This document shows, piece by piece, positions 6,790 to 12,149 of a stretch of 64,000 nucleotides of DNA. The first letter of the stretch is position 1, and each line of letters begins with the position of its first letter. The translations under genes were made by a program, and so were the position numbers. Origin of the DNA: Bacteriovoracaceae bacterium (GTDB taxonomy: Bacteria > Bdellovibrionota > Bacteriovoracia > Bacteriovoracales > Bacteriovoracaceae); NCBI GenBank assembly GCA_019752535.1, contig JAIEMA010000064.1, positions 1 to 64,000 on the forward strand, given 5' to 3'. The notes below the pieces were generated by a model, which was not told the origin of the DNA, ran no database searches, and worked only from the letters and a program-made list of their open reading frames with translations.

Positions 6790-7173
6790 ATGAAGAAAAT
6801 AATTTGTATTTTAGGAATTGTATTTCCTGGCTTAGCAACAAAAGCTTTAGCACAACAGATGAAAATCCCAAGAATAGTTGACCTAAGTCCAGAGCGCTCT
6901 ATCCTCAAGCCAAGTCATGAAGAAATTAGAAAGCTATCCCTTTATGAGTCCTGCTCAGATGAAGAGCGCGTTTCATTTCTCAAGAAATTGATTCTCAATT
7001 CGAAAGTTGAAAGATCATCAACTTTAAATGATCTTTTACTTAAAACTAATCTTGAAGATATTTTAAGAGAGCCTATTGAGATTCAAAAGGATGCAATAAT
7101 TGAATTGATTCGCAAAGGGGGTCTTGAGTGGGGAAAAGTTATCGATCCTACAGAACATATTGGGTCTGCATAA
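6790..7173 (+). CDS. Secreted 127-aa protein, first gene of the YcaO/kinase operon
   Basis: Not recognised. The ATG has GGGAG eight bases upstream. An N-terminal signal peptide ends around KALAQQ (cleavage near residue 22), so the product is predicted to be periplasmic. The mature part is about 105 aa, charged and mostly helical in character, with a single Cys near residue 55 and none of the Cys/Ser/Thr-rich tail expected of a classical azole peptide precursor. It overlaps the next gene by 46 bases, so it belongs to the same transcript and is probably co-translated. It could be a partner or substrate of the downstream YcaO or lipoprotein; this is inference from position only. Confidence 0.6.
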   Translation: MKKIICILGIVFPGLATKALAQQMKIPRIVDLSPERSILKPSHEEIRKLSLYESCSDEERVSFLKKLILNSKVERSSTLNDLLLKTNLEDILREPIEIQKDAIIELIRKGGLEWGKVIDPTEHIGSA

Positions 7174-8636
7174 TTTTGATTCTAACGGTATCTTGCATGA
7201 AAGAAGAAAAAAACATTACTGCGTTGGTTCCTATTAGTGAGCAAGTTGCTAAAGTTGATCCTTCTGAGTTAAATTCAGTAAGCCAGTATTTTATAGCTGA
7301 TAATATCGGCTTGAAGCTTCTGCATGTTAATCAAAGTAATGATTATGAAAAGATACTTGCTGAAAGTATCGAATTCAATAATGATAGAACGGAAATAATC
7401 ATAACAATTAAAGATGCAAAGTTTTCAGATGGTTCAAGCATAACATCGACGGATGTGAAGAATACTTTCAAAAGGATGATGGTGAAGGGGAGCCCGCACA
7501 TACCCCTAAAAGACTTCATTAAAAAAGAAGACCATATCCAAAATCTCAATACTCCTTTTAATTCTTTTGAGGTAATTTCAGAAAAAAAATTAAAGATTCA
7601 CCTAAGCAGACCGACAAAAGAAATTCTATACTATTTTACTTTGGCTGATTCAATTATTTTGCACTCATCCCAAATAAAAGAAGAAAATCTCACGTTAAGT
7701 GATTGGAGCATAACTTCTGGCCCATACTTTCTAAGACAGAACAACATTTTAGAAAAGAATAAAATAAGTCTAGTTGCTACTAATGAAATGCCTGACAAGG
7801 TAAAGCTAATTCCTGCTCCGGAGGTTGGCGATACTAATGTTCTCACAACAGCAGACATGGGGTACTCATTTTTTTTAAAGAAAGAAATCCATGAGGAGAT
7901 ATCTCTTCCCCGAAATTATAAGTTTTCAACTGATTCATTTAGTACAATAAATTTCCTGGCAATAAACACAAAGTCAGATAAGTTTAAAGATATAAAGACA
8001 AGGCAATGGTTGAATAGCAAGATTCAAAAGCGATTTTTAAAAGATCTTCCTGGAAATCCATATTATAAGAAAGCAAATCAGTTTTTCTTGGTTGGTTCAA
8101 AGTTTTATAGAGAAAATTTTAATTGTGAAAATTTTCTTTCTGAAAGTGACAGAGTGCCAGATTCATTAAAAGATGGTTTGACAATTATGACGGCAGTTCA
8201 AGGGAAAAAGTTTGCTTTTGATGGTCTAGAAAATGAACTTGAGGCAGCGTTGGGAATTAAGGTAACTATAAACTTTACTGATTCTGTTGAACAGTACCAA
8301 AAGAGAAAAGTTGATAGAGACTACGATGCTTATTTTGTTCCTACTTCTGCTAGTTATCATGTAGCAAGTGAATCTCTGAATCTCCTTTATAAAGCAAAAA
8401 AGAGATTTGCCGATAATCCAAACGGAAAGATAAATGATCTTATTGATAGCTATCAGAAGAGTGAAGGAGATTCAGTTGGAATTGTTTCCAGTATTATTGA
8501 AGAAATGTGCAAAGAATCTGAAGTAATTCCGCTATATTATTTATCATCTCCAAAGTTTTATAATTCTTCAACGGTTGATATATCTGCCATGAACCCTAAC
8601 GAGTCGATGACTTTCTGGAGAATTCGTGTTCTCTAG
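7128..8636 (+). CDS. Family 5 (peptide/nickel type) solute-binding lipoprotein
   Basis: A 502-aa protein resembling periplasmic dipeptide/oligopeptide-binding proteins: the N-terminal half has the typical LAESIEFNND...DAKFSDGSSITSTDVKNTFKRM pattern. GTG start at 7128 with AAGGGGG upstream. The N-terminus has basic residues, a hydrophobic stretch WVCIILILTVSC and a lipobox-like TVSC, so it is likely lipid-anchored with Cys at residue 23. No ABC permease or ATPase gene is nearby, arguing that it captures a ligand for sensing or hand-off instead of import. It overlaps both its upstream (46 bases) and downstream (11 bases) neighbours. Confidence 0.75.
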   Translation: MGKSYRSYRTYWVCIILILTVSCMKEEKNITALVPISEQVAKVDPSELNSVSQYFIADNIGLKLLHVNQSNDYEKILAESIEFNNDRTEIIITIKDAKFSDGSSITSTDVKNTFKRMMVKGSPHIPLKDFIKKEDHIQNLNTPFNSFEVISEKKLKIHLSRPTKEILYYFTLADSIILHSSQIKEENLTLSDWSITSGPYFLRQNNILEKNKISLVATNEMPDKVKLIPAPEVGDTNVLTTADMGYSFFLKKEIHEEISLPRNYKFSTDSFSTINFLAINTKSDKFKDIKTRQWLNSKIQKRFLKDLPGNPYYKKANQFFLVGSKFYRENFNCENFLSESDRVPDSLKDGLTIMTAVQGKKFAFDGLENELEAALGIKVTINFTDSVEQYQKRKVDRDYDAYFVPTSASYHVASESLNLLYKAKKRFADNPNGKINDLIDSYQKSEGDSVGIVSSIIEEMCKESEVIPLYYLSSPKFYNSSTVDISAMNPNESMTFWRIRVL

Positions 8637-9537
8637 GTTAAAACTTTTATCAGCAGCTCCACAGTTACTTGATGCTCTTAAGAGTTACTCGGACTCATTT
8701 CAACTAGAGAGATCCTGGTCTCATAGTGGGATTCACACTGTACATTTGAGTCTTAAGAAAGATGAAGTAAACTACAATTCTTGGGGGATTGATACCAATG
8801 AAGCTGTTGCGTTGGCAAAGTCGTATATGGAAATGGTTGAGAGGATACACTCAACCATAATGCCATCTCTATGGATGACTTTTGATCAAAAATTCGTACA
8901 AAATTTAAACCAAGACTTAATTAGCAATTTTATGTCGACAACTTCTGGTTGCGCGGCTCATTTGACACGCTCAAGTTGTTTTAAGAATTCTGAAGAGGAG
9001 ATAGTTGAGAGGCATTCATTTACTGAGATTTGTCTTAAAAATATTTCTCCACTTAGAATTTATAATAACACTCTCATTTGGCGTGCTCCTAATAATTACT
9101 TTGTGTCTTTAGCCTACTATCTTATTCCCGATGGGGGAGTCATTTTTGGGGCCGGGGCAGGCAGCAATGAAAATAAAGCCATATTAAAAGCTCAGTTTGA
9201 ATTATCGGGTGCTGTGGCTTGGTCAAGAAATCCATCAAATGTCAAAATGCTGATGGAAAGCAACTGTTCCACAGGTTCTTCTTTTGTCAGAAAAAAACAT
9301 CTTTTATTAAACGATTTGCCTGCTTTTATGCAGAAGACTGCGCCTAATGGAATAGTAAAAAGTGTGGATGTGTATTATGGGTGCATTGATCTGTTGCCTG
9401 AGTTTTCAAATGTCGCTGGTTTAAATGTTACTCGAGCAGTATCACCAGATCTTATTCCTTTTTCATTTCTCCCGTTGAGAGAGCAACCATTTGGCGCCCT
9501 GTTTGATTCAGAGCTAGAGCATTGTGTTGTAGTTTAA
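8626..9537 (+). CDS. Divergent YcaO-domain protein
   Basis: 303 aa. YcaO enzymes use ATP to activate peptide amide bonds (azoline, thioamide, amidine formation). The hallmark ATP-site pattern is visible in order: EMVER at 69-73, a SGCAAHLT turn near 107 followed by EEEIVERH with E125/E128/R129, GAGAGSNENKA at 175-185 followed by AQFE (Q190, E192), and a late VTRAVSPDLIPF block resembling the C-terminal V-P-G-L region. The Ser normally at the start of motif 1 appears replaced by Lys64. The Pro-rich C-terminal tail of azoline-forming YcaOs is absent. GTG start with CTGGAG upstream, inside the end of the lipoprotein gene. No E1-like, TfuA or dehydrogenase partner is adjacent. Confidence 0.72.
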   Translation: MFSRLKLLSAAPQLLDALKSYSDSFQLERSWSHSGIHTVHLSLKKDEVNYNSWGIDTNEAVALAKSYMEMVERIHSTIMPSLWMTFDQKFVQNLNQDLISNFMSTTSGCAAHLTRSSCFKNSEEEIVERHSFTEICLKNISPLRIYNNTLIWRAPNNYFVSLAYYLIPDGGVIFGAGAGSNENKAILKAQFELSGAVAWSRNPSNVKMLMESNCSTGSSFVRKKHLLLNDLPAFMQKTAPNGIVKSVDVYYGCIDLLPEFSNVAGLNVTRAVSPDLIPFSFLPLREQPFGALFDSELEHCVVV

Positions 9538-9538
9538 T

Positions 9539-11200
9539 ATGAAAAAGAATATTCGGACTTCATTTTTGGTTGTAATGAGTGTCACAATAGGTTTGGTTAC
9601 ACTTATTGCGATTTTCGTATACGCAATTTATCAAAGAAATCAATTCGAGACGGAACTTCGTAGTTCAATTCAAAATCAAGCAAAGCAGATAATTGCCACT
9701 CATCCGGAAGAGAGAAAAACCCATCAGTATCTGATCATTCAGCGACTTTTAAAAAACATCAACAATGTAGAGTCTGTTGTCGTTTTAGACAAAGACTGTA
9801 AAACGCTCTTAGGTTCGATTTCCTTGCCAATTACTGATGGGATTTGTCCCTCAAATCAAGAAGGTCTTCTCGTCTTGCCCTATTCAGATGTTCTATCGGG
9901 CATTGGTTTTATAGTTATAAAGATTGAAATAATTAAGTTTGCAAAAAATGAAGTTCTTTTAGTACTTGGATTATCAATTTTACTAGCTTTAATAGTTTTC
10001 TTTGCTTTGAAGATAATTTGGGAAAAATACCTCTACAATCCACTACTGTTAGAAATTCAAGGAATTGTTTCTAGCGATAAAAGAGAAACATTCTCTGAGT
10101 TTAAGCCAATAATAAATCACTTAGACCAACTCCTTATTGAGAAAACATTTATAATTAAGCGGAAAATTGAACTAGAGTCAGAAGAGAAGAAATTTAAAGA
10201 AGCAATTAAGGTCGCTCACGATATTTTAAATCCTATTCAAGTTTTGAAATCGAATTCATCCACTGATTTAAAACTTAAGGCATTAGACCAAATCGAGAAA
10301 ACTGCATGGGACCTTCTCCCTGAAAAAGCACCATTATTCATAGAGAGCTTGAATGTAAACAATCTTATTTCCCAAGTTATAGATATATTAAGATCTGAGT
10401 TCCCAGAACTTAATGTGAGCTTTAATGGACATGAGGAGTTTTATGCTCAGGTTTCATCTACTCATTTCCTTCGTTCATTTCAGAATTTGCTAAAAAATGC
10501 GATAGAGGTCCAATCTAATAATGTTCCAATAGAGATATGGGTTTCTGCAAATATTGATTATGTAACTATTCAAATAAATGACAATGGGCCAGGGTTCACA
10601 GATAAAGCTGGCGTTACAACCAAAGTTCACGGGAGTGGCGTTGGAATATCAAGTGCGAAGGCTTCCTTAGAGCTAATGAATGGTTCTCTTTCTTATGAAT
10701 CTAGACCTGAAGGTGGAATCAGAACTGTGATTAATTTGCCCTCAGATCAGATTCATCTTTTTTATGGACCTAAGCAAGTTCCTGTTACTTTTGGGGTTTA
10801 TATTCCGGGTATCATGCAAATTATGAATGCAAATGAGCTTTGCTCAAATCACTATGTCATATCTGTGTTTGATCCTCGATCTGAATTCAATGGTGTCTGG
10901 AAGAAAATTCTAGTATCTGATTTGAGTAGGATCAAATTGATTAAGATTGAGAAAGCTCTATTAGTAGATGATGATAAATATATACTGGCTAATTGGGTTC
11001 AGAAGGCTCAGCAGGTCGGAATTGATTTGAAAGTTGAGAAGCATAAAGTTGACGTTGTTACTGAGGAAGTCGTTTTTCTTGATAGATATCTTGATGGATT
11101 TGATTCATTTGAATGGCAGCAAGAACTTGTCAGGATTGGAAAGAGTGTTGTTTCTATCTCTGGCTTAAACTCTCGTAGTAAGATTCCTCCCTGGTCTTAG
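9539..11200 (+). CDS. Hybrid sensor histidine kinase with degenerate receiver domain
   Basis: 553 aa inner-membrane kinase. Two membrane helices (about 9-31 and 137-160) enclose a ~105-aa periplasmic sensor region. The phospho-acceptor box is VAHDILNP with His227. The ATPase domain shows NLLKNAIEV (N box), NDNGPGF (G1) and GSGVGIS (G2) near 315-375. A C-terminal receiver-like domain follows: acidic LLVDDD near 475 and a phosphorylatable Asp515 in VFLDRYLD, but the end is short. It starts one base after the YcaO stop, so expression is coupled; no separate response regulator gene adjoins. It probably reads the state of the periplasmic lipoprotein or 127-aa protein. Confidence 0.85.
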   Translation: MKKNIRTSFLVVMSVTIGLVTLIAIFVYAIYQRNQFETELRSSIQNQAKQIIATHPEERKTHQYLIIQRLLKNINNVESVVVLDKDCKTLLGSISLPITDGICPSNQEGLLVLPYSDVLSGIGFIVIKIEIIKFAKNEVLLVLGLSILLALIVFFALKIIWEKYLYNPLLLEIQGIVSSDKRETFSEFKPIINHLDQLLIEKTFIIKRKIELESEEKKFKEAIKVAHDILNPIQVLKSNSSTDLKLKALDQIEKTAWDLLPEKAPLFIESLNVNNLISQVIDILRSEFPELNVSFNGHEEFYAQVSSTHFLRSFQNLLKNAIEVQSNNVPIEIWVSANIDYVTIQINDNGPGFTDKAGVTTKVHGSGVGISSAKASLELMNGSLSYESRPEGGIRTVINLPSDQIHLFYGPKQVPVTFGVYIPGIMQIMNANELCSNHYVISVFDPRSEFNGVWKKILVSDLSRIKLIKIEKALLVDDDKYILANWVQKAQQVGIDLKVEKHKVDVVTEEVVFLDRYLDGFDSFEWQQELVRIGKSVVSISGLNSRSKIPPWS

Positions 11201-11251: not shown

Positions 11252-11783
11252 TCTTGCTCCGAATCCCTGAATCATTTAGAATTTAAAAACTGGTGAGGGT
11301 TAAACCCCATATGTCAGGATATGGGCCTCACCAAAACAAATCCCCGCATTCGAGGGGAAGTATTTAATAGAAAACCGCTGCCCCTTGCACCCAATCCCTG
11401 AATCACTTAGAATTAAAAAACTGGTGAGGGTTTGAACCCCTTTGTTCAGAGCAAAGGGCCTCACCAGAACAAATCCCCGCATTCGAGGGGGAGTTTTTAA
11501 TAGATAGCCGCTTCCTCTTGCACCCAATCCCTGAATCATTTAGAATTAAAAAACTGGTGAGGGATAAACCCCTTTGTTGCGAGCAAAGGGCCTCACCAGA
11601 ACAAATCCCCGCATTCGAGGGGGAGTTTTTAATTGAAATCGCTTCCTCTTGCACCCAATCCCCAAATCATTTAGAATTAAAAAACTGGTGAGGGTTAAAC
11701 CCCATAGGGCAGTACTATGGGCCTCACCAGAACCAATCCCCACATTCGCGACGGAGTTTTCAGATGCAATCGCATCTTTGGGT
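11252..11783 (+). repeat. Four tandem ~132-bp structured repeats (candidate multi-domain non-coding RNA)
   Basis: Units start at 11262, 11393, 11526 and 11657 (periods 131, 133, 131). Each has the same plan: an AT-rich left strand (ATTAAAAAACT), TGGTGAGG, a 7-8-nt bulge GTTAAAC, a 7-bp stem with a 6-7-nt loop, CCTCACCA, then CCCC-GCATTCGA-GGGG, then AGTTTTTAAT, which pairs with the left strand. This makes a three-way junction. The inner stem covaries: CCCATAT/ATATGGG in unit 1, CCCTTTG/CAAAGGG in units 2 and 3, CCCATAG/CTATGGG in unit 4. Unit 4 has lost the CCCC/GGGG hairpin. No sensible protein is encoded; strand is not determined. I do not recognise an RNA family. Confidence 0.8.
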
Positions 11784-11891: not shown

Positions 11892-12149
11892 TTACTTATC
11901 TTTCTCTGATTCCCAAACCGTCCTCGGCTTCATCTTATTCTCTTTAAAGTAGTAGAGTGCCTCTTGAATCAAGACTTGATAGCCGCGGCCAGTTTCAGCG
12001 GAGAGTGCTTTAAAATATTCTACAACTTCATCATCTAGATTCATGAACACGCCTCGGCGAGTGGCTTTTTCAAAATCAAAGCCCTTGGCCATTTCGGCTT
12101 CCATTTCTTCGCGCTCTTTTTTTGTGAGTGGCTTGAAATTATGTTTCAT
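11892..12149 (-). CDS. BrnA-like antitoxin, orphan
   Basis: 85-aa protein with an unfolded charged N-terminus (LTKKEREEMEAEMAKG) and a C-terminal ribbon-helix-helix-like part: VFMNLDDEVVEYFKALSAETGRGYQVLIQEALYYF in outline, matching the BrnA pattern of a short strand, a helix, a Gly-Tyr turn and a second helix. BrnA normally follows its toxin gene brnT, but no toxin frame is found upstream on this strand (12150-12420) or downstream, so this is an orphan antitoxin, a plain regulator, or the remnant of a pair. An inverted repeat upstream may be its operator. Confidence 0.65.
   Translation of the reverse strand: MKHNFKPLTKKEREEMEAEMAKGFDFEKATRRGVFMNLDDEVVEYFKALSAETGRGYQVLIQEALYYFKENKMKPRTVWESEKDK

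Follow-up and report, generated by a model that had tools for sequence, protein, structure and literature searches.

What role could a YcaO enzyme play when it is encoded in one operon with a small exported protein, a solute-binding lipoprotein and a membrane histidine kinase? This question is raised by four coupled genes in the window, by which we mean the whole stretch of 64,000 nucleotides analysed here, from a contig of a Bacteriovoracaceae bacterium:

6790..7173, + strand: small exported protein of 127 aa, candidate YcaO substrate or signal precursor (Sec-like N-terminus, positional homologues)
7128..8636, + strand: family 5 solute-binding lipoprotein (SBP5) of 502 aa (PF00496, E=8.2e-26; conserved in relatives)
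8626..9537, + strand: divergent YcaO enzyme of 303 aa (PF02624, E=7.6e-5; SagD, E=2e-5; profile and fold)
9539..11200, + strand: membrane histidine kinase of 553 aa with a receiver-like tail (HATPase_c, E=8.7e-14; AlphaFold model)

All four open reading frames at 6790-11200 are present and coupled as the sequence-only reading of this DNA had described them, with a 46-base overlap, an 11-base overlap and a 1-base gap. We suggest, as a fairly probable interpretation, that the operon is a self-contained unit for making, exporting and sensing a YcaO-modified peptide. Directly after the kinase gene lies a tandem array (window 11252-11760, 3.9 copies of a 131-bp unit), and further on (11892-12149, - strand) an 85-aa open reading frame resembles BrnA-type antitoxins (E=4.5e-5, just under the cut-off).

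Taken alone, the 303-aa protein matches PF02624 with 22.6 bits, under the Pfam curated cut-off of 25.7, and its NCBIfam match is the SagD family. Relatives were collected as eight sequences found first in the family and then as a set of 30, and a profile of these 30 matches solved YcaO structures, namely MJ1094 (1.3e-21), McbD (6.7e-15), the M. kandleri YcaO (2.5e-11), LynD (3.5e-7) and TruD. The 34 best PDB matches of the AlphaFold model (pLDDT 83.6) are all YcaO structures, so that the assignment made from the letters alone now stands on both a profile and a fold. The core motifs are placed as follows:

8830..8844, + strand: YcaO motif 1, ExxER (E69, E72, R73), invariant in 30 relatives
8998..9015, + strand: YcaO motif 2, ExxERH (E125, E128, R129, H130), whose E, E and R do not vary among the 30 relatives
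9199..9201, + strand: YcaO motif 3 glutamate E192, invariant in the 8 closest relatives and present in >90% of the 30

G108 is likewise invariant across the 30 relatives. We take the E and R residues of these motifs to be ATP and magnesium ligands, in line with work on the E. coli YcaO, and the invariance of the catalytic-motif residues indicates that the protein has been kept as an enzyme. It is, on solid grounds, a YcaO with intact core motifs. No signal peptide is present, in keeping with a cytoplasmic protein, and its C-terminus reads EHCVVV, without the PHP or PxPxP-type end of azoline-forming and thioamidating YcaO RiPP enzymes, where most relatives end in PHPxG/A.

The same four-gene set recurs in dozens of relatives of the predatory Bdellovibrio. 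Scanning genome contigs for close homologues of the window YcaO gave no match, and no close copy was found in two genomes of the window's genus; query A5 was too divergent for the equivalent scan, which with query A6 returned six loci in Bdellovibrionota MAGs and a weak match in a Streptomyces-labelled MAG. Profile searches reached further, with matches in 32 of 129 genomes of the family and in 192 of 369 genomes of the phylum, where many weak matches will be ordinary YcaOs. In a neighbourhood sample made up of 77 loci fetched from the profile searches and the first nine, a same-strand SBP5 gene lies near 68 of 85 YcaO open reading frames, a proportion that reflects a biased sample rather than an unbiased rate, since these are the top matches of profiles built on module YcaOs. 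A kinase gene lies near 71 of the 85 and both partners near 66. The fairer sample consists of loci L056-L092, obtained with a profile of the 8 closest relatives only, and most of these also have SBP5 and kinase. The 68 SBP5-linked YcaOs represent 55 genomes, or 56 with that of the window (counted by hand), from at least nine families.

The coupling is tight as well as recurrent: SBP5 and YcaO genes overlap or lie <=20 bp apart in all 57 pairs with SBP5 directly upstream, as do YcaO and kinase genes in 50 of 51. The window's own genome holds 6 SBP5 genes in 3.49 Mb, a low background. Module YcaOs cluster together on the YcaO tree, where the module label changes 9 times against 16.5 in shuffles (0/500), on a quick tree with many weak branches. 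The order of all four genes is kept in relatives with only about 19-36% identity, which argues against chance. This neighbourhood survey, proposed with the sequence-only reading as one means to overturn it, instead found the four genes staying together.

Among the closest relatives, the order of small exported protein, SBP5, YcaO and kinase is seen in L017 and L020, and the neighbourhoods of L018 and L023 are cut off at contig ends. In L021, L022 and L024 the kinase gene is divergent; a subtype without the small gene was considered for these loci and rejected, as open reading frames of 53-64 aa, under the initial length cut-off, precede SBP5 there. L025 was discarded as a false match, and YcaO genes that have no SBP5 beside them (L065, L067, L070 and others) were excluded, being regarded as different systems. 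At L021:7034-8502 and L089:3599-5100 the SBP5 gene of the module appears split into two open reading frames, by a frameshift, a stop or an assembly error.

The candidate substrate matches no Pfam family, begins with the Sec-like N-terminus MKKIICILGIVFPGLATKALAQ, and has homologues at the equivalent place in L017 and L020. Two segments are of interest:

6790..6855, + strand: predicted Sec signal peptide, aa 1-22 (from the sequence and the hydrophobic N-termini of relatives)
7138..7170, + strand: C-terminal tail VIDPTEHIGSA, without Cys, at the site of the Cys-bearing tail in relatives

Across the phylum a small Sec-like open reading frame usually comes first, upstream of SBP5, and all 56 that were scored have a hydrophobic, Sec-like N-terminus. 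A Cys occurs within the last 20 residues in 38 of the 56, compared with 27% of other open reading frames at the same loci, and the Cys content of these proteins is 4.5% in the tail versus 1.0% in the middle. The remaining 18 have no Cys in their last 20 residues; some of the 56 are misassigned, so the true rate of Cys tails may be higher. Recurring tails include SSIC, SDVIC, TVCFGGGPG, GTICV, GGTICF and CxxC, and also TVC and TIC. In the clade L061-L077 conservation is higher in the signal peptide than in the middle of the mature protein, as if the signal peptide also served recognition, a role that has been suggested for the signal peptides of MNIO-modified bufferins (PMC12452194). The window copy is atypical, with a small protein that lacks Cys (its tail ends DPTEHIGSA where that of sister L017 ends DPTRPCL) and a degraded YcaO C-terminus, and the chemistry of this copy is the least certain of all.

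On the sensor side, the window SBP5 scores 91.4 bits against PF00496 (cut-off 32.4), has a GTG start and carries the lipobox LTVS-C; many relatives have an N-terminal membrane anchor in place of the lipobox. SBP5 proteins commonly bind peptides. The kinase contains the following elements:

9701..9928, + strand: periplasmic sensor region (roughly aa 55-130), in which C87 and C103 are invariant and may form a disulfide
10217..10219, + strand: phospho-accepting H227 in AHDILNP, invariant in 8 relatives
10931..11197, + strand: truncated receiver-like domain (D478, D515, K548; ends SKIPPW)

The invariance of C87 and C103 holds in the close group. Support for the receiver-like tail described earlier is weak: a tail profile finds response regulators as its best PDB matches (E=0.02), Pfam Response_reg is found in 2 of 7 members (best E=0.027) and the fold pattern is truncated in the AlphaFold model, but D478, D515 and K548 do not vary among 8 relatives. 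Module kinases end in zero, one or two receiver domains; the window tail is the counterpart of the second receiver in larger relatives, and the segment before it, modelled with low confidence, may be what is left of the first. A separate response regulator, reported as missing, is indeed absent from the window, whereas NtrC-type regulators are common in relatives, with an NtrC or receiver match near 33 of the 85 YcaO genes; the regulator at L076 carries a sigma-54 domain (Sigma54_activat, E=4e-55; Response_reg, 5.9e-15). Sigma-54-like -24/-12 sites such as TGGCCTTAAACTTGCT lie 20-106 bp before the small gene in L124, L125, L127 and L130. A promoter test gave p<=0.005 for 6 of 56 upstream regions, two of them near-identical, in a set that did not include the window, and such promoters upstream of some modules offer a weak hint of feedback.

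How does the module compare with known systems? Permease genes, as the sequence-only reading had stated, and ATPase genes are absent from the window operon, and none recurs beside relatives' modules; clustering and spot checks with Pfam found no E1-like/ocin-ThiF, TfuA or RRE partner in the window operon or recurring near relatives, in agreement with the earlier statement that TfuA and E1-like partners are missing. The module thereby differs from YcaO-dependent RiPP clusters (LAP/TOMM, thioamitides), which it resembles in that a YcaO adjoins a small protein whose tail carries Cys/Ser/Thr: it is without RRE/E1-like or TfuA partner and ABC exporter, its small protein bears a Sec signal, and SBP5 and kinase are fixed parts of it. 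A further likeness is the nitroreductase present in a few loci, between YcaO and kinase in L058 (PF00881, E=1.5e-13) and as weak matches adjoining L123 and L127, and rare beside relatives' modules overall. Nitroreductases oxidise azolines in known clusters, and their occurrence in or near these three loci is in line with azoline oxidation.

Periplasmic binding proteins report to hybrid kinases in LuxP-LuxQ and ChvE-VirA, and the module likewise pairs a binding protein with a kinase; it differs in that its binding protein belongs to family 5 and the operon itself encodes the presumed ligand. Closer in logic is the quorum-sensing system ComQXPA of Bacillus, where modifying enzyme, precursor, histidine kinase and response regulator are encoded together (PMC4008528), and to which modules with an NtrC-type regulator form an analogous set. 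In the module a YcaO takes the place of the isoprenyl transferase, the precursor carries a Sec signal, SBP5 is an extra receptor and the envelope is Gram-negative; it works alike without being a member, the two have no component in common other than kinase and regulator, we claim no sequence kinship with ComQ or ComX, and the window itself is without the regulator gene. ComQXPA-type logic fits the operon better than the sequence-only reading had thought. Bufferins and oxazolins, which are MNIO-modified and Sec-exported, share the Sec signal peptide and Cys motifs of the precursor (PMC12452194), whereas the module has a YcaO rather than MNIO/DUF2063 and sensing genes rather than copper defence. 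Sec-exported RiPP precursors are said to be rare, and bufferins are a case in which export by Sec has been demonstrated (PMC12452194); YcaO activity without TfuA is known from the E. coli YcaO acting on uL16 (PMC13063428).

For the substrate, chemistry, ligand, output and diffusibility of the proposed peptide system, we infer the following route. The small protein would be synthesised with its Sec signal peptide, and the cytoplasmic YcaO would use ATP to modify its backbone before or during export, most likely in the C-terminal tail, as an azoline or thioamide at a Cys/Ser/Thr-Gly stretch. After export via Sec, the tail would be released or displayed in the periplasm and bound by the membrane-anchored SBP5 with no permease involved, and the loaded SBP5 would contact the small periplasmic domain of the kinase. 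Phosphate might then pass via the kinase receiver domain(s) to the NtrC-type activator, which is encoded beside many relatives and in the window organism would be elsewhere or absent. The comparative evidence, namely phylum-wide recurrence, Cys-rich tails, lack of a permease, frequent membrane anchoring of SBP5 and NtrC-type regulators beside many modules, strongly supports one unit with peptide-signal logic, as the sequence-only reading had proposed; within this unit the YcaO may act on the small protein, and the product may be the ligand of the kinase. Neither a protease nor an outer-membrane exit for the peptide was found, so a diffusible signal is something we infer only.

Other explanations could account for parts of this evidence. 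The YcaO-modified tail could be a periplasmic metallophore or buffer, with SBP5 binding the metal-peptide and the kinase reporting the metal or a cofactor. The SBP5 family includes the nickel-binding NikA, the best NCBIfam match of the window protein (E=1e-9), the small proteins carry Cys or CxxC tails, and the Sec-exported RiPPs known so far, the bufferins, chelate copper (PMC12452194). However, genes for permeases, efflux or metals do not recur next to the module, many loci have a tail with a single Cys or without any, and the several divergent modules found in one genome point to private channels and not one metal; we consider metal sensing unlikely. Equally improbable, in our judgement, is that the small protein serves as an unmodified, CpxP-like regulator of the kinase in envelope sensing while the YcaO modifies SBP5, the kinase or another protein. 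Its length in some loci (up to 171 aa) is great for a precursor, the window tail is without Cys, and the substrate of the E. coli YcaO, uL16, is a folded protein (PMC13063428), yet the location of the Cys enrichment in the tail and the nitroreductases in or near some modules speak against it.

The sensing genes might also be directed at an exogenous peptide, for example from prey, while the YcaO part of the same operon would yield an unrelated product. The general affinity of SBP5s for peptides and the fact that several relatives are MAGs of predator lineages would suit this scenario; the order and overlap of YcaO, SBP5 and kinase genes, however, are kept over very large divergence, which makes separate action hard to explain, and we regard it as very unlikely.

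The reading as a unit that makes, exports and senses its own modified peptide has wider consequences. The module looks like an undescribed way to make, export and sense a chemically modified peptide, and no earlier description of it was found in the open-access literature, subscription papers being outside the search. If true, it would be, as far as open-access searches show, the first YcaO-modified peptide with dedicated sensing from the same operon, and would demonstrate Sec export for YcaO products. Dozens of natural pairs of enzyme and substrate would then be available for a YcaO that lacks an RRE partner, and this phylum of predatory bacteria would have a candidate system of communication. 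More tentatively, we raise the possibility of phylum-wide Gram-negative cell-cell signalling, in which a partnerless YcaO would turn a Sec-exported precursor into a thiazoline or thioamide autoinducer, read through private SBP5-kinase channels, up to three or more per genome.

Other YcaO systems were met alongside the module. The window genome encodes a second small divergent YcaO on contig C31 (L006:6492-11984; 278 aa, ending PLPHPLN), which adjoins a PqqD-like protein (E=3.5e-12), a JmjC/cupin protein and a protein of 364 aa that has a nitroreductase-like look and no Pfam match; this is a separate RiPP-like cluster. Two loci with a YcaO and a glycosyltransferase and no SBP5 (L075:3583-6439, L091:5000-7564) were set aside from the SBP5 module; a protein of 117-137 aa ending GFTTLTATN(C/S)SSYCD lies beside the YcaO, and these are probable glycosylated RiPP clusters. 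L056, L059 and L063, without SBP5, were set aside as another YcaO system, in which a 399-aa YcaO lies beside a radical SAM and B12-binding protein of 456-459 aa (Pfam, L056 copy).
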